Assembly: GCF_024505045.1 (NCBI RefSeq)
Contig: NZ_JANIBM010000003.1
Span: forward strand, 186,001-250,000
Source of the DNA: Methylomonas aurea
GTDB lineage: Bacteria > Pseudomonadota > Gammaproteobacteria > Methylococcales > Methylomonadaceae
DNA length: 64,000 nucleotides
Reading direction: 5' to 3'
Below are positions 48,131 to 59,349 of this stretch, one piece after another. Under the pieces are notes generated by a model, which had not been told where the DNA came from, did not search any database, and saw nothing but the letters and a program-made list of their open reading frames with translations. A program made the position numbers and the translations under genes. The number at the start of each line of letters is the position of its first letter. Position 1 is the first letter of the stretch.

Positions 48131-50023
48131 ATGTGCGGCGTAGTAGGTATTTTCGATATTCGGGGATTGAGCGAAATAGACCGCAGTTTGCTGTCGCGCA
48201 TGAACGAATCCCAGTTCCATCGCGGCCCGGATGAGGGGGGACTGCATACCGAACCAGGCTTGGGATTCGGCCATCGCCGGTTATCGATCATCGACCTGTC
48301 CAGTGGACAGCAACCGATGCACAGCCAGGACGGGAACGTTGTCTTAACCTATAACGGCGAAGTCTACAATTTTCCGGAATTGCGTTTGGAACTTGAAGCG
48401 TTGGGGTATGGCTTTAGAACGCATTGCGATACGGAAGTAATTTTGTATGCTTGGCAGGCTTGGGGAGAAGCTTGTGTCGAACGCTTGCGCGGTATGTTTG
48501 CTTTTGCCATTTGGGACAGAGTCAAGCAAACCTTGTTCCTGGCACGCGATCGCCTTGGCGTCAAGCCGCTGTTTTATGCGGAATTACCGAATGGGCATTT
48601 TATTTTCGGTTCGGAGTTGAAGGCGTTAACCCAACACCCATTGTTGCCGAAAGATCCCGATCCAACAGCGATAGAGGACTATTTCAGTTTTGGCTATATC
48701 CCAGATCCGAAAACTATCTACCGCGGCGTCTACAAATTGGAGCCTGGTTACTGCTTGACCATTAAGCGGGGCGACGTAAATTTTCGACCCAAACAATATT
48801 GGGACGTTACGTTTAAACCGGTTGCTAACGTCAATGCAGTCGAGGCGGGCGAGGAATTAGTTTCCCGCTTACGCGAAGCGGTAAAAATTCGGATGGTTGC
48901 AGATGTGCCGTTGGGAGCGTTTTTATCCGGCGGCGTCGATTCCAGCGGCGTTGTGGCGCTGATGGCGGGTTTGTCGGATGATCCGGTGAATACCTGCTCA
49001 ATTTCGTTTGGTGATCCAAAGTTTAATGAGTCGGAGTTTGCTGCCAGAGTGGCCGAGCGCTACCATACTGCCCATCGCGTAGAGCAGGTCGATCCGGACG
49101 ACTTTAGTTTGATCGAACAGCTTGCCGGTTTATACGACGAACCTTATGCCGACAGCTCTGCTTTGCCGACTTATCGGGTGTGCGAATTAGCCAAAAAGCA
49201 AGTCACGGTAGTGCTGTCGGGTGACGGTGGCGACGAGAATCTTGCCGGATATCGCCGCTACCGTTGGCATACCTACGAAGAACGCATGCGATCGATCTTG
49301 CCGGACGCTTTGCGTATGCCGTTGTTTTCTACACTTGGCAAGGTGTATCCAAAACTGGACTGGGCGCCGAAGGTGTTTCGCGCCAAAACGACGTTGGAAT
49401 CTATCGGCAGGGATTCAATGGCCGGTTATTTCCATAGTGTCTCGGTGTTGCCGAATGCGATGCGAGCGGAATTGTTCAGCGAGCGTTTGAAGCGCGATTT
49501 GCAAGGTTATCAGGCTGTCGAAGTGTTTCATCGTTACCGTGAGACCGCTCCAGACGATCCGTTGTCGATGGTTCAATATCTCGATCTAAAAACTTATTTG
49601 GTTGGGGATATACTGACCAAAGTCGACAGAGCCAGTATGGCGCATGCGCTGGAAGTGCGTGTACCGCTGTTGGATCACAAGTTAGTGGAATGGATGGCTA
49701 CGTTACCGCCGGATTTGAAGTTAAAAGGACGAGAAGGCAAATACGTTTTCAAGAAAGCATTGGAACCCTATTTGCCATATGACATTCTGTACAGACCGAA
49801 AATGGGATTTTCGGTGCCGCTATCCGCTTGGTTCAGGGGGCCTTTAAAACAGCGCGTACGCGATACGTTGCTTGGCGATACGCTACAGAACACCGGTTGG
49901 TTTGACAGTGGTTATTTGCAACACATCGTTAGCCAGCATCAATCTGGATTGCGCGATTACAGTGCGCCCATTTGGTCATTATTGATGTTTGAGGCGTTTC
50001 TGAGGAATAATTTGGTTGGATGA
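48131..50023 (+). CDS. XrtA-associated amidotransferase (asparagine synthase family)
   Basis: A 630-residue class II glutamine amidotransferase. The nucleophile Cys2 is intact (MCGVVGIFD), with HRGPDEGG and YNGEVYNFPELR in the glutaminase domain; the synthase domain has the PP-loop SGGVDSSGV and the SGDGGDENLAGY motif. GGAGAG precedes the ATG. This family (TIGR03108) is standard in exosortase-A loci and probably amidates a uronic acid of the polymer rather than making asparagine. A second, degenerate relative is at 56893-58674. Confidence 0.94.
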   Translation: MCGVVGIFDIRGLSEIDRSLLSRMNESQFHRGPDEGGLHTEPGLGFGHRRLSIIDLSSGQQPMHSQDGNVVLTYNGEVYNFPELRLELEALGYGFRTHCDTEVILYAWQAWGEACVERLRGMFAFAIWDRVKQTLFLARDRLGVKPLFYAELPNGHFIFGSELKALTQHPLLPKDPDPTAIEDYFSFGYIPDPKTIYRGVYKLEPGYCLTIKRGDVNFRPKQYWDVTFKPVANVNAVEAGEELVSRLREAVKIRMVADVPLGAFLSGGVDSSGVVALMAGLSDDPVNTCSISFGDPKFNESEFAARVAERYHTAHRVEQVDPDDFSLIEQLAGLYDEPYADSSALPTYRVCELAKKQVTVVLSGDGGDENLAGYRRYRWHTYEERMRSILPDALRMPLFSTLGKVYPKLDWAPKVFRAKTTLESIGRDSMAGYFHSVSVLPNAMRAELFSERLKRDLQGYQAVEVFHRYRETAPDDPLSMVQYLDLKTYLVGDILTKVDRASMAHALEVRVPLLDHKLVEWMATLPPDLKLKGREGKYVFKKALEPYLPYDILYRPKMGFSVPLSAWFRGPLKQRVRDTLLGDTLQNTGWFDSGYLQHIVSQHQSGLRDYSAPIWSLLMFEAFLRNNLVG

Positions 50024-50110: not shown

Positions 50111-50746
50111 ATGAAATCAAATGACCGAAAACCGGAGCAAGCCACTGATTCAAGCGATGAAAATCGGTCGGTAGTTAAATCCAGACGTTCATTCGCCAAG
50201 GCCGGAATCGTTTCCCCGCTGGTCATGACGCTTATAAGCCGTCCGGCGATGGCCGGAGGCGTCTGTTTTTCTCCGTCCCGTTCATTGTCTAAGAACACAA
50301 GCGTTTCGCAAAATGGGAATTACGGTGAGTGTAACGGTATTTCGCCTGGAAATTACAAAACGCAGACGAATCCGTTGATGCCTTCTTATAATTGGCCTTC
50401 CTCAGTTCCGCCTAGCACGCCATTCCATCCTCTGTTCAAGAGGGGCAGTACTGCTAAAGGCACATTGTTTGAAACGGGGACCGGTCTTAATCTTCGTAGC
50501 CGGACGCTACTAGAAGTGCTTGGCCTAAATGGATCTGGCGATCCTTCCAAACTAGCCTTTCATACCATTGGTGCCTACTTAAATTGCGTAAATGGTTTTA
50601 TTCCAACAAATGTCCTTACCAAAGAAAAAGTTGTATCGATCTGGGAAGAATATGTTACGAACGGTTTTTATGAACCGTTTGCAGGGGTTAAATGGTATGC
50701 AGGGGATATCGTGTCTTATTATCAGACCAATTATATTGCCCCTTAG
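50111..50746 (+). CDS. Tat-exported small protein of the HPr-rel-A neighbourhood
   Basis: A 211-residue protein with no family name that I can give. The start at 50111 is chosen because AGGG lies about nine bases upstream. An acidic N-terminus is followed by a twin-arginine signal, SRRSFAKAGIVSPLVMTLISRPAMA, with cleavage likely after AMA. The mature part has two early cysteines (GGVC and GEC), an SPGNYKTQ segment and a helical C-terminal half (LLEVLGLNG, KLAFHTIGAYLNC). From memory, proteins with an SRR-type Tat signal and a C-x(n)-SPGYWK pattern accompany HprK-related kinase A genes in other polysaccharide loci. It may be the substrate of the next genes. That is inference. Confidence 0.7.
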   Translation: MKSNDRKPEQATDSSDENRSVVKSRRSFAKAGIVSPLVMTLISRPAMAGGVCFSPSRSLSKNTSVSQNGNYGECNGISPGNYKTQTNPLMPSYNWPSSVPPSTPFHPLFKRGSTAKGTLFETGTGLNLRSRTLLEVLGLNGSGDPSKLAFHTIGAYLNCVNGFIPTNVLTKEKVVSIWEEYVTNGFYEPFAGVKWYAGDIVSYYQTNYIAP

Positions 50747-50757
50747 CCGACTCGAGG

Positions 50758-51027
50758 ATGGCCGTTAAAGACCGCTTTGCGGAGCTTAAAGCATATTTTT
50801 TTGAAGATGGCGGTGTAATATTTGATCGCAGCTCGGGGTATACCTACAGATTGGATTCATTAACATTGTCGGTGTTTGCAGCTGTTGAGCGCCTTGCTAG
50901 CGATCTTGAAACTGGGAATGAACAACAACTGGCCGAACGTGTTGCAACTATGCGCTCCGATTATTCAATTGATGATATTACGCAAGCTTTGGCTCAATTG
51001 AAGCGGGTTTCTATTTTGTCAGATTGA
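50758..51027 (+). CDS. PqqD-like peptide-binding protein, HPr-rel-A system
   Basis: An 89-residue protein. The pattern FFEDGGVIFDRSSGYTYRLDSLTLSVFAAVERL is that of PqqD-like domains, the RiPP recognition element fold that binds leader peptides. The ATG at 50758 is chosen; GAGG is directly before it, closer than normal. In the HPr-rel-A set (TIGR04353 type) this small gene always precedes the HprK-related kinase, and here the stop overlaps the possible TTG start of that gene. It may present the Tat-signal protein to the kinase. Confidence 0.8.
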   Translation: MAVKDRFAELKAYFFEDGGVIFDRSSGYTYRLDSLTLSVFAAVERLASDLETGNEQQLAERVATMRSDYSIDDITQALAQLKRVSILSD

Positions 51028-51953
51028 TTATTGTGGCAAATAATATTGGTCGTATCTCGCAACTGACTTTAGCGCAATTTGCTAGTTTTATTAAACAGGG
51101 AAATTTAGCAATTAGAATTGGAGAAATGACTTTTAAGTGTCGCTCGGAGTTTTCCTCCGTAGCGCATTCCCTTCATACCCTTTACACTAACCATCCATTT
51201 CAACTCAATCCTGATTTTGCGGATTTCCATGTGGAAATTTCTGCGCCCAGCAATCTGAGGCGTTGGTTTCGTCGCCAATCGGAATTTGTAATTGATGGCG
51301 AAAAGCCATTTGAGCCACTTCCCCTGAGTCAAGCGCCAGCCTTGCTGGAATGGGGGCTGAATTGGATTATCGTGGCCTCATGTCATCAATGGTTTACGAT
51401 CCACGCAGCGTCTCTTGAACGTAACGGTCAGGCGGTAATTTTTCCAGCACCTCCCGGCACAGGCAAAAGCACGCTATGCGCTGCTCTTGCATTCCGCGGA
51501 TGGCGTTTACTATCAGATGAACTTACCCTGCTGGATTTGGAAACGCTGGAGGCTAAAGCCCTGGCCCGGCCTATCAACCTAAAGAATGCCTCTATCGATA
51601 TTATTCGGGAATTCGTGCCGCAAGCAATTTGGGGACCTGAGGTTTTCGATACAACCAAAGGTCGAGTAACCCATGTTGCACCACCCGAAGAGAGCGTCGT
51701 CAGAATGTTGGAACATGCTGTGCCGCGTTGGATCATTTTTCCTAAGTATGTCGCTGGCGCCGAACCTTGTCTTTCGCCGCGCGATAAGTCGCAAACCTTT
51801 ATTGACTTGGCAGACAATGCTTTCAATTACAGCGCATTGGGAGAAGCGGGTTTCGATTTGGTGGCTAGGCTTGTCGATCGTTGCGATTGCTACGATTTTG
51901 TTTACAGCCAACTCAAAGATGCTATCGATGTTTTTGATTCGCTAACGGGGTAG
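51024..51953 (+). CDS. HprK-related kinase A
   Basis: A protein of up to 309 residues related to the HPr serine kinase/phosphorylase. The C-terminal domain has FTIHAASLERNG, the P-loop PAPPGTGKST (141-150 from the first start) and RLLSDELTLLDLE. The N-terminal 120 residues are unlike HprK proper. The start is uncertain: TTG at 51024 overlaps the PqqD stop, GTG at 51033 would be nine bases shorter at the end; no better signal is seen. It lacks the HPr/PTS partner genes, so the target should be another protein or peptide. Related kinases in lasso-peptide clusters phosphorylate the precursor. Confidence 0.85.
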   Translation: MIIVANNIGRISQLTLAQFASFIKQGNLAIRIGEMTFKCRSEFSSVAHSLHTLYTNHPFQLNPDFADFHVEISAPSNLRRWFRRQSEFVIDGEKPFEPLPLSQAPALLEWGLNWIIVASCHQWFTIHAASLERNGQAVIFPAPPGTGKSTLCAALAFRGWRLLSDELTLLDLETLEAKALARPINLKNASIDIIREFVPQAIWGPEVFDTTKGRVTHVAPPEESVVRMLEHAVPRWIIFPKYVAGAEPCLSPRDKSQTFIDLADNAFNYSALGEAGFDLVARLVDRCDCYDFVYSQLKDAIDVFDSLTG

Positions 51954-51957
51954 TCGA

Positions 51958-53085
51958 ATGGCTCTTACTGCAAAAGCCAACGACTTGACTGGTCGACAAT
52001 TATTAGTCAACGCTCTGCAAAACCCGGTTTGCTTATCTGAGTTACCGCTAGCCAAGTGGGATACTTTAATTAGGCTGGCTAGAGTCAGCAATTTAATCGG
52101 GCGGCTAGCTGAGGCGATCGATACTGTCAAATTAACGTCGCACGTTCCCGATAAAGCCCTCCCTCATCTGGTCTCGGCTCGTTTGTTGGCCAATCACCAG
52201 CGGCAAGCTATTCGCTGGGAAGTGAAGCATTTGGGGGATGCGTTGAATTCTCTGGACGCACCCAAGGTGCTGCTCAAAGGCGCCGCTTACGCAGTGCAAA
52301 GTTTAGAGGCTGCCGGTGGGCGAGTGTTTGGAGATTTGGATCTGTTAGTTCCAAAGACTGCTATTCCTGCGGCAGAGGCTGCCTTGATGTTAAAGGGATG
52401 GGGAGCAGAGGGCGTTGATTCCTATGATCAGCGCTACTATCGCGAGTGGATGCATGAAATCCCTCCAATGGTCCATCGAGGAAGAGGAACTGTGGTTGAT
52501 TTGCATCATAATATTTTGCCCCTCACCGCACGCTACTGCCCAACGATTGAGCTGTTTTTTGCAGACGCCGTGCCTTCCTCTGTACCGGGATTCCAGGTTT
52601 TGTCCCCCGTGGATATGGTGATTCACAGCGCTACCCATTTGTTTTATGAGAGTGAAATGCGTAATGGATTGCGTGATTTATTCGACTTGGATGCTTTGAT
52701 TCGGCAGTTTTCACGCGACCGAACCGAGTTTTGGCCTCTCCTCGCCGAACGTACCGATGCGATTGGCCTCAATTGGCCTGTGTTTCTAGCGCTATCTTGT
52801 TTACGAGATATTTTGGGTGCTTATGTTCCGGAGGAATTTTTTCAACGTATCAGAGTTAATGCCAATTTAGGTTCAATGCCAGAGGTGTTTCTTACCAAGC
52901 TATACTACTGGGCAGTTTGGCCGAAGCATCCTTTGATCGATAATTTGCCATCTCGGTTGAGCCGTTTTTTGGTGTATATAAGAGGGCATTACTTGCGTAT
53001 GCCGCTGCGCTTGCTGCTGCCCCATCTCTCGCGTAAGGCTTTGGGTAGGCTATATAAAAGTGGTAGTGGCTCCGACCATCGATAA
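51958..53085 (+). CDS. nucleotidyltransferase-fold protein (PF14907-like)
   Basis: A 375-residue protein of the NTP_transf_5 type. The signature PKVLLKGAAYAVQSLEAAGGRVFGDLDLLVP contains the two Asp of a polymerase-beta-like GDLDxL metal site, followed by TVVDLHHNI. The remainder is helical (SATHLFYESEMRNGLRDLFDLDAL). Proteins of this kind are often encoded beside HprK-related kinases in polysaccharide and in lasso-peptide loci. It might transfer a nucleotide or a phosphosugar, but the reaction is unknown. The ATG follows the kinase stop by four bases. Confidence 0.85.
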   Translation: MALTAKANDLTGRQLLVNALQNPVCLSELPLAKWDTLIRLARVSNLIGRLAEAIDTVKLTSHVPDKALPHLVSARLLANHQRQAIRWEVKHLGDALNSLDAPKVLLKGAAYAVQSLEAAGGRVFGDLDLLVPKTAIPAAEAALMLKGWGAEGVDSYDQRYYREWMHEIPPMVHRGRGTVVDLHHNILPLTARYCPTIELFFADAVPSSVPGFQVLSPVDMVIHSATHLFYESEMRNGLRDLFDLDALIRQFSRDRTEFWPLLAERTDAIGLNWPVFLALSCLRDILGAYVPEEFFQRIRVNANLGSMPEVFLTKLYYWAVWPKHPLIDNLPSRLSRFLVYIRGHYLRMPLRLLLPHLSRKALGRLYKSGSGSDHR

Positions 53086-56892: not shown

Positions 56893-58674
56893 ATGACAAA
56901 ATTTGCGGGATGGATGGGGGCAGTTTCCGAAACGGGGGCGGCGATTGCGACACTTGGGCAAATGGCTGGACAGATTCACGGTGATCCGTGTATTGGGTCG
57001 GGTTACGCTTTGCTGGCGGACTCGGCAAATTGCCGGCGAAGCGGCGACGTGTTATTGCTTGCTTTGCAATCGGCATATCCTTCCGACGGATTGGCGTTAT
57101 TGCTTGACGCCTATCTAAGCCAAGGTATCGATGGCTTGCTGCAAAGGCCTGATGTGATCAATTTAGTAGTGATTGATGAGCGGCAACAAAAAGTGTTTTT
57201 GGTAACCGATCCGATTGGACTAAGCCATATTTACTACGCGGAAACCAAAGATAGGCTGGTGTTTGGATCCAGCGCCGATTTCGTCGTGCGCCACCCTTAC
57301 GTGAGCAATGCAATATTGCCGCAGTCGGTTTTCGATTATGTCTATTTCAACCATTGCCCCAGCCCGAACACCATTTACCGGCAGGTTAAAAAATTAGAGG
57401 GCGGACAGTGTTTACGTTACCACAATAGCCAAATTGAAATCGAACGCTACTGGCAGCCCGAGTTTTCTGAAATTGATTGCGACTTACGCCAATCTGGGCG
57501 GGATTTGCAACAATCTTTGATCGAAGCCGTAAAACAGCGGGTCGGTGCCGAAGAGAATACCGGTGCATTTCTGAGTGGCGGCTTGGACAGTTCTAGCGTT
57601 GCCGGAGCGTTAGCGCGAGTATTCCCGGGCAAGGCCAAGACGTTTTCGATGGGATTTCAAGTCGCTGGATACGATGAAATCGAATACGCCAACATTGCGG
57701 TAGCCGCGTTTAATACCCGCTCCCATGTTTATTATGTTACCCCGGAAGATACCGTTAATGCCGTGCCGGCGATTGCAGCATATTATGACGAGCCGTTCGG
57801 CAATTCATCGGCGCTCGCCGCCTATTACTGCGCGAAGCTGGCAAAAGAGAGTGGTGTGAATCGGCTTTTGGCCGGTGACGGCGGGGACGAAATTTTTGCC
57901 GGCAATGAGCGCTATGCCAAGCAGATGTTGTTCGAGGCTTACCATCGCTTCCCGAAGTTTATGGCAAGAGGATTCGAAGGCATGTTGGGTGGCTTGCCCA
58001 ATGCGATCGCCAAGCAGAAAATTCCATTCAAAATAAAAAGATATGTCGAACAGGCCAATGCGCCGATGCCTGATCGCTTGCAAGATTACAATTTCTTGCA
58101 CCGGCATGCCGCTGCTGATATTTTTCAGGCCGACTTTTTGGCCCAAGTCGATTCCACAGCTCCGTTATTTTCCTTACGGGAAAGTTACTGGCGGCCGGCA
58201 AATGCTAGCACTTTGAACCGCATGCTTTATATGGATTGGAAAACGACGCTGCACGATAACGATCTGGTGAAGGTCAATCGGATGTGCGAAATGGCTGGAG
58301 TCGAAGTTTGTTATCCGTTGCTCGACCAACGCATAATCGACTTATCTTGCCGAATTCCGTCGGCCGACAAACTCCGAGGCCAGAAACTGCGCTGGTTTTA
58401 CAAACAGGCAATGGCCGATTTCTTGCCCGAACCCATCATCAATAAATCCAAACACGGTTTCGGATTGCCGTTCGGCATTTGGCTGAAAGACCACGAGCCT
58501 TTGAAACAAATGGCGTACCAAGCCGTTCGCGATTTGGGAAAGCGGGAGTTTTTTCAGCCGGAATTTCTGGAACACGCAATCAAGATGCATCAAAGTGTTC
58601 ACGCGGCTTATTACGGCGAACTGATATGGATACTGATGATGCTGGAGTTTTGGTTTGTCGGGAAAGGCTACTGA
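56893..58674 (+). CDS. asparagine synthase homologue lacking the glutaminase cysteine
   Basis: A 593-residue asparagine-synthase-family protein. The N-terminus reads MTKFAGWMGAV instead of MCGI, and the upstream codons offer no Cys start, so the nucleophile that releases ammonia from glutamine is absent. The HRGPD-type motif is also lost. The synthase half is intact, with PP-loop SGGLDSSS (228-235) and LLAGDGGDEIFAGNERY. Such proteins adenylate a carboxylate and let an amine attack, as in beta-lactam synthetase or lasso-peptide cyclase. The gene ends the polysaccharide/HPr-rel-A block. An amide or lactam on a sugar or peptide is plausible; no product can be named. Confidence 0.88.
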   Translation: MTKFAGWMGAVSETGAAIATLGQMAGQIHGDPCIGSGYALLADSANCRRSGDVLLLALQSAYPSDGLALLLDAYLSQGIDGLLQRPDVINLVVIDERQQKVFLVTDPIGLSHIYYAETKDRLVFGSSADFVVRHPYVSNAILPQSVFDYVYFNHCPSPNTIYRQVKKLEGGQCLRYHNSQIEIERYWQPEFSEIDCDLRQSGRDLQQSLIEAVKQRVGAEENTGAFLSGGLDSSSVAGALARVFPGKAKTFSMGFQVAGYDEIEYANIAVAAFNTRSHVYYVTPEDTVNAVPAIAAYYDEPFGNSSALAAYYCAKLAKESGVNRLLAGDGGDEIFAGNERYAKQMLFEAYHRFPKFMARGFEGMLGGLPNAIAKQKIPFKIKRYVEQANAPMPDRLQDYNFLHRHAAADIFQADFLAQVDSTAPLFSLRESYWRPANASTLNRMLYMDWKTTLHDNDLVKVNRMCEMAGVEVCYPLLDQRIIDLSCRIPSADKLRGQKLRWFYKQAMADFLPEPIINKSKHGFGLPFGIWLKDHEPLKQMAYQAVRDLGKREFFQPEFLEHAIKMHQSVHAAYYGELIWILMMLEFWFVGKGY

Positions 58675-58809
58675 ACAGAAGTTGCAGGGTGACAAAAAAC
58701 GTCAGTTTTGGCCAAGATTCAGATTGTCGTTTGGGTGTGGCAAATAGCGGACGGGGGCAAGTTGCCGTCTTATCGCCCGAGCCCAGCCAAGTCTGCGGCA
58801 TCAATCGAT

Positions 58810-58826
58810 TTGGCACGTAAATTGTA
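58810..58826 (+). promoter_or_regulatory. sigma-54-type promoter of the pilin gene
   Basis: TTGGCACG-TAAA-TTGTA matches the -24/-12 consensus TTGGCACG-N4-TTGCA with the correct spacing and one change (T for C in the -12 GC). It lies 46 bases before the pilin ATG, giving an untranslated leader of roughly 35 bases. Type IVa pilin genes are usually RpoN/PilR dependent. Confidence 0.75.
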
Positions 58827-58872
58827 TTGTTCTTCCCGAGTTTCAATCCCGTTAACTTTTAAGGAAGTTTTT

Positions 58873-59349
58873 ATGAATATGCAATTACAAAAATCACAAC
58901 AAGGTTTTACCTTGATCGAATTAATGATCGTGGTCGCGATCATTGGTATATTGGCTGCAATCGCCATTCCGGCATATCAAGACTACACGGTTAAATCCAA
59001 AGTCTCCGAAGGTCCAAGTTTGGCGTCTCCGGCGTTGACGGCTGGAGGTGTAGCCTGTAGCGAACAGACTTTGGCCAGTGGGCTTACAAACGGCGACATG
59101 GGATTAAGTACTGCAACAGCAATTACCGGTAAATACGTTAGCGCCGTTACCTTCAGCGGTACAAGTGCTACAGGTGCTACGGTAACAATCCAGTACAAAA
59201 AGATTGGTAGTTCGGTTGACTCTAATGCCACTGTAGTTTACCGGGGTATTTGCACTCCGGGAACAGGCATGGCTTGGTACACCACTACAACGCCGACCTC
59301 GACCACTTTCAATGGTACGGTTTCAGCTAAGTATCAGCCTAAGTCTTAA
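58873..59349 (+). CDS. pilA: type IV major pilin
   Basis: A 158-residue prepilin. The ATG at 58873 follows AAGGAAG; an upstream open frame is not coding. The leader [11 protein letters not shown] ends in the prepilin peptidase site G11|F12, followed by [24 protein letters not shown] with Glu5 of the mature protein. The globular part is Thr/Ser-rich, with two cysteines (C62 and C127) that can form a disulfide, and it ends in Ser (KYQPKS). It is exported and polymerised into pili by a type IV machine encoded elsewhere. A sigma-54-type promoter and a strong terminator frame the gene, so it is monocistronic. Confidence 0.95.

Follow-up and report, generated by a model that had tools for sequence, protein, structure and literature searches.

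A putative Tat-type client of an HprK-related kinase cassette in Methylomonas aurea

We analysed a window of 64,000 nucleotides of the Methylomonas aurea genome (contig NZ_JANIBM010000003.1), in which a gene for a protein with a Tat-type leader, hereafter the client, precedes the genes of a PqqD-like protein, an HprK-related kinase and an NTP_transf_5 nucleotidyltransferase. The client is probably a dedicated substrate of this four-gene cassette, its Tat signal doubling as an RRE leader for the phosphorylation or decoration of Ser residues. That the protein is a client of the HPr-rel-A kinase had been proposed in the initial annotation, and comparative genomics (linkage, co-occurrence and leader specificity) strongly supports the proposal. 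The HPr-rel-A kinases, for which we found no target named anywhere, would thereby gain a likely substrate, and Tat export and RRE-guided RiPP tailoring would be joined in one system. More tentatively, the cassette may represent an undescribed, widespread class of modification guided by an N-terminal segment that is Tat signal and RRE leader at once. This segment would direct kinase and nucleotidyltransferase to substrates ranging from ~60-residue peptides to ~280-residue proteins, and the exported products would be phosphoserine-linked and bear a sugar or a nucleotide. The relevant features of the window are as follows.

48131..50023, + strand: XrtA/PEP-CTERM amidotransferase of the asparagine synthase type, upstream (TIGR03108, 1075 bits; context only)
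50111..50746, + strand: client protein, 211 aa, with Tat-type leader, Cys/Ser linker and SPGxxK...LNx domain
50111..50254, + strand: leader, residues 1-48, VKSRRSFAKAGIVSPLVMTLISRPAMA (conservation in 138 leaders, profile specificity)
50264..50302, + strand: linker C52...S56...S60...S64 (C..S...S.N.S), candidate acceptor region
50330..50743, + strand: mature domain, C74 and SPGNYK to the C-terminus; a general SPGYWK...AxLNA domain that also occurs without the cassette
50758..51027, + strand: PqqD-like RRE protein, 89 aa, proposed partner of the client leader (RRE fold, TbiB1/TfuB1 PDB profile matches, travels with the client)
51033..51953, + strand: HprK-related kinase A, GTG start at 51033 (TIGR04352, 383 bits, over the curated cut-off of 200; invariant residues)
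51402-51404, 51465-51467 and 51516-51518, + strand: kinase codons for His, Walker Lys and Asp, respectively (residue conservation)
51958..53085, + strand: NTP_transf_5 nucleotidyltransferase, DxD at residues 126/128 (PF14907, 170 bits, cut-off 31.2)

The client gene had been described as directly preceding the PqqD-like and kinase genes. This is the order seen, with 11 bp between the client stop codon and the PqqD-like ATG at 50758.

The client protein and its leader

The reading frame of the client (ATG at 50111, stop at 50746) codes for a protein that begins MKSND, then VKSRRSFAKAGIVSPLVMTLISRPAMA|GGVCFSPSRSLSKNTSVSQNGNYGECNGISPGNYK. The features of a Tat substrate are present, namely a twin-arginine motif with a conserved RR pair (residues 25-26, in KSRRSFAKAG; codons at 50183-50188), followed by a short hydrophobic stretch with the conserved Thr40, and a signal peptidase site of the AxA type (RPAMA|GGVC), with cleavage predicted after Ala48. 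The client was not matched by any model of Pfam or NCBIfam, those for Tat signals among them, and one relative reached 18.3 bits with PF10518, below the cut-off of 22.7. The 'Tat' label therefore rests on motif conservation, because the curated Tat models miss the protein. In a set of 138 unique leaders the only departures from RR are two KR and one RH, the fourth position of the motif is F or L in 130/137 and the cleavage site has A or G in 132/138. This near-invariance, together with a tatC gene in the same genome, bears out the SRRSFAKA Tat signal predicted in the initial annotation and shows that homologues keep it. A lipoprotein signal was rejected, as the distance between cleavage site and conserved Cys varies.

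A leader profile of 41 positions was built from the kinase neighbours. At E<=1e-3 it matched 51 of 398 phylum-level genomes, comprising 44/61 kinase-positive genomes and 7/337 others; at E<=1e-4 the figures were 41/61 versus 0/337 (Fisher P about 4e-41). The class-level sample gave 37/41 kinase-positive genomes versus 7/328 others (P about 3e-39). These P values overstate the evidence, because the profile derives from kinase neighbours and related genomes do not count as independent. When the profile was run on the whole M. aurea genome, the client scored 52 bits and the next match 17, so that the leader is not a generic Tat signal; given this gap and the near-invariant RR pair, a generic signal or a chance RR pair was rejected.

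Where the initial annotation counted two cysteines, the client has three (C52, C74 and C159), of which only C52 and C74 are conserved. SPGNYK is present at residues 78-83 as had been noted, although SPGxxK turned out not to be the cassette-specific part. The linker Cys and its three Ser are invariant in 26 class A clients (defined below) and have no counterpart in domain-only homologues that lack the cassette. Residues ~80-180 were modelled with AlphaFold2, and Foldseek found no PDB match for the model. Pfam searches of client relatives gave no significant family, and a PDB profile search with client classes A and B found nothing. A tblastn search of plasmids with the client and a search of genome contigs with the window's client protein alone were likewise without match.

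Clients and kinases across genomes

A search with the client protein matched 52 of 201 genomes of its family, and 30 loci were looked at, i.e. that of the window and the best 29 of the rest. One locus (L008) was set aside as untestable, at a contig end. The kinase gene is directly downstream on the same strand in all 29 testable loci. In this close family the N-terminus, VDKSRRSFAKAGxxAPVIMTLxSRPAxG, followed by C..SG..SGN.S..C..G.SPGxW, is much better conserved than the remainder.

We also started from the kinases, in 369 class-level and 398 phylum-level genomes of Pseudomonadota, and took 57 loci above the family cut-off. An RR-leader gene adjoins the kinase gene in 54 of them (53 identified by profile and L043 by eye); in L078, client and PqqD genes stand together, divergent from the kinase gene. 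The three kinase genomes with no adjacent leader gene (G625, G637 and G584) have a leader match on another contig. The recurring unit of the extended neighbourhoods is composed of leader gene, PqqD, kinase and NTP_transf_5, the last in nearly all cassettes. HtrA-like protease genes were found near 13/40 gammaproteobacterial cassettes and GalE-like epimerase genes near 8/40 (loci including L091, L094, L097, L101, L104, L109, L123 and L125). Their products are possible partners in periplasmic processing and sugar-donor supply, but the linkage is loose.

The clients fall into classes. The gammaproteobacterial class A has C..S...SGNxS and the SPGYWK...AxLNA domain, while another large group, class B, has an unrelated part of ~110 aa ending in [ST]CWxS[FL]. 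A third group has ~95 aa with the end GFTCFASLQMP, and further groups differ again. As judged by these alignments, only the leader is constant across lineages and the mature domains vary. Non-A clients often end in [ST]C[WFL]xS and class A begins with C-x(1,3)-S (alignment A4; L115-L119, L130); these may be one Cys-Ser motif shared by both, placed at the start of the mature part in class A and at its end in the others.

The mature domain of class A clients was then traced with two peptide patterns through named genomes, a collection independent of the preceding ones, which yielded 80 loci. These split without exception: 44 have the leader, PqqD and the kinase adjacent, and 36 have none of them. 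Homologues mostly far from HprK-related kinases, or without Tat signals, would have spoken against the initial annotation; instead, all 44 leader-bearing ones lie beside the kinase, as do the 29 of the close family, and RR is near-invariant among the leaders. The other 36 loci belong to Gemmatimonadota, Planctomycetota, Chloroflexota and others, and mostly align only from query residue ~45-55. Thus, SPGxWK is a general domain, and leader and linker mark a protein for the cassette. The absence of the leader from 36/36 kinase-free homologues strengthens the case that the cassette reads the leader. In the putative client, leader and C..SG..SGN.S linker together form the cassette-specific part. 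Proteins that have a C-TPGYWKNH...AALLNA domain and neither leader nor kinase cassette are spread over many phyla (L203, L206-L212, L214-L218, L220-L230, L232, L234-L243 and L245), and this domain has no Pfam match. Our literature search found no paper naming the PGYWKNH motif or TIGR04352/04353.

Partner proteins and proposed modification

The PqqD-like protein of the window scores 23.4 bits with TIGR04353, below the curated cut-off of 35, and 38/38 relatives tested match this model at E<=0.1. Its position, its fold and these 38 relatives support its being a divergent TIGR04353 member. The AlphaFold2 model (pLDDT 86) has a winged-helix fold of three strands and three helices. The 12 best Foldseek matches to it are all RREs (best E 1.3e-3), and a profile of the PqqD family matched the lasso RREs TbiB1 (E 1e-4) and TfuB1 (E 0.009) in the PDB. 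The modelled fold is that of an RRE, closest to lasso B1. In four genomes, client and kinase are on separate contigs (G625, G637, G676 and G817). The unlinked client has its own PqqD-like gene directly downstream in three of the four (L146, L150 and L151), and no PqqD-like neighbour was detected for that of G637 (L153). Neither client nor PqqD accompanies the kinase at the loci examined for G625, G637 and G817. The PqqD-like protein thus appears to belong with the client, with which it is genetically paired.

In 37 kinases, His, Walker A GxGKST, Asp-Glu and other residues are invariant, and a phmmer search of the PDB with the kinase found no HprK at the sequence level. In the NTP_transf_5 family, KG, GR...DxD and a third Asp are kept in all or nearly all of 98 sequences, with catalytic residues in 98/98. 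Judging from these intact catalytic residues, both enzymes look active. In lasso peptide clusters, PadeK phosphorylates a Ser of the precursor, and the annotated nucleotidyltransferase PsmN is required for the attachment of a hexose to phosphoserine (PMC9266682).

We propose that the PqqD-like RRE would bind the client leader in the cytoplasm and present the bound client to the HprK-related kinase, perhaps delaying export. The kinase would phosphorylate a conserved Ser, for which the S56-S60-S64 segment directly behind the signal is the likeliest place. Through NTP_transf_5 the phosphoserine might then receive a group derived from a nucleotide or a sugar, by analogy with the apparent role of PsmN in pseudomycoidin. 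After its release, the modified client would leave the cytoplasm through Tat and be cleaved by signal peptidase. Linkage, co-occurrence, modularity, the RRE fold and the intact catalytic residues, all of them by sequence, speak for such leader guidance, as do the lasso precedent for the three activities and the short RR-leader peptides described below. Counted against it are the Asp-Glu pair of the kinase, the differing Ser sites, the L153 client, the PqqD score below cut-off and the misses by Tat models. The conserved Ser are N-terminal in class A (S56/S60/S64) and C-terminal in class B ([ST]C[WF]xS), and there is thus no evident common modification site. If the proposal is correct, the clients of almost all such kinases in Pseudomonadota can be predicted with the leader profile, and the leader could be used to target phosphorylation or phosphoglycosylation to exported proteins of choice.

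The Tat proofreading chaperones DmsD and TorD each bind a particular Tat signal and withhold their substrate from export until it has fully matured. The existence of such chaperones for other substrates suggests another reading, in which the kinase phosphorylates the Thr/Ser of the signal (T40) as an export switch, the PqqD-like protein proofreads and the mature protein is left unmodified. The hydrophobic stretch does contain Thr or Ser at this position in 135/138 leaders, and no other hydroxyl residue is shared by all client classes. Nevertheless, such a switch leaves no role for NTP_transf_5 despite its presence in nearly all cassettes, the linker Ser of class A are also invariant, and lasso kinases act on the core part of their precursor (PMC9266682). 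We consider it unlikely and rate T40 below the linker Ser as a site.

The genetic context of the window invites a further reading. Client and cassette sit inside an XrtA-type exopolysaccharide cluster, in the window and in relatives, and xrtA is present in the genome (4.8 Mb, with two matches to the AMO (pmoA/amoA) family, thus most likely that of a gammaproteobacterial methanotroph). The cassette might accordingly act on a polysaccharide, a lipid or another protein, with the Tat protein as an accessory exported by the same operon. This is improbable: around most other gammaproteobacterial cassettes the exopolysaccharide genes, including those of asparagine synthase and glycosyltransferases, are missing and the leader gene persists. 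Furthermore, a single leader across unrelated mature domains is not expected of an accessory, and the RRE is kept beside the client when the latter is unlinked from the kinase. The upstream asparagine synthase was rejected as a cassette member, being absent from most of those loci. A second asparagine-synthase-like gene lies downstream in the exopolysaccharide cluster (56893-58674); its product starts MTKFAGW, has no Cys2 and shows a weak N-terminal amidotransferase domain. Directly after the cluster, positions 58708-59349 code for a type IV pilin-like protein.

Slightly less probable still is that the kinase-like protein performs other ATP chemistry on the client (e.g. activation or ligation), with the PqqD-like protein still guiding it: its Asp-Glu differs at one position from the Asp-Asp of the His-Lys-Asp-Asp set that lasso kinases need, and the near-invariant Cys shortly after the cleavage site (134/135) could be the modified residue, but His, Walker Lys and Asp are invariant and the closest characterized relatives phosphorylate Ser (PMC9266682).

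Related systems and short RR-leader peptides

The proposed system closely resembles the tailoring of the lasso peptides paeninodin (PadeK) and pseudomycoidin (PsmK/PsmN), which also involves a PqqD-type RRE (B1), an HprK-like kinase acting on the precursor and a nucleotidyltransferase acting on phosphoserine (PMC9266682). In contrast, the substrates here are proteins of 130-280 aa with a Tat-type signal as leader. A lasso pathway as such was rejected: the core cassette has no cyclase C or B2 protease, the client has 211 aa, and the upstream asparagine synthase is an XrtA-type amidotransferase. SynChlorMet also combines HprK-like (ScmC) and PqqD-like (ScmD) proteins, and the profiles of both matched weakly. 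The scores are nevertheless far below the Scm cut-offs, and the radical SAM partners of that system were not seen in the core gene set here. With DmsD and TorD the analogy is functional only, their fold being unrelated to the RRE fold found here beside a tailoring kinase.

In bufferins and other MNIO-modified RiPPs, an export signal similarly replaces the ordinary leader of the precursor, and a partner protein has been suggested to mask this signal until modification (PMC12452194). They have a Sec signal, an MNIO enzyme and a DUF2063 partner, whereas the client has a Tat-type signal, a kinase and PqqD. In the journals that our literature search covered, we found no paper describing a Tat counterpart of Sec-signal RiPPs. 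The client system would offer a tractable case of keeping a signal-bearing substrate inside the cell until it is modified.

Seven class-level genomes have a leader match and no kinase above the cut-off, and each has a weaker HprK-like kinase match. The leader matches in these genomes are in short frames of 63-153 aa. Several such frames adjoin genes for PqqD (PF05402, lasso-type) and for an HprK-like kinase outside TIGR04352, with NTP_transf_5 in two loci. None of the NCBIfam models matched the short RR-leader peptides tested, which probably form an undescribed RiPP family. These precursors are of RiPP size, have the same leader and lie near related kinases, and would link the clients to RiPPs. 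The short RR-leader peptides are in loci L249-L259. Gly-Ser is found 2-3 residues after the AxA site in 15/15 short sequences, and the Ser of this pair, close behind the cleavage site, is an obvious candidate for the acceptor.
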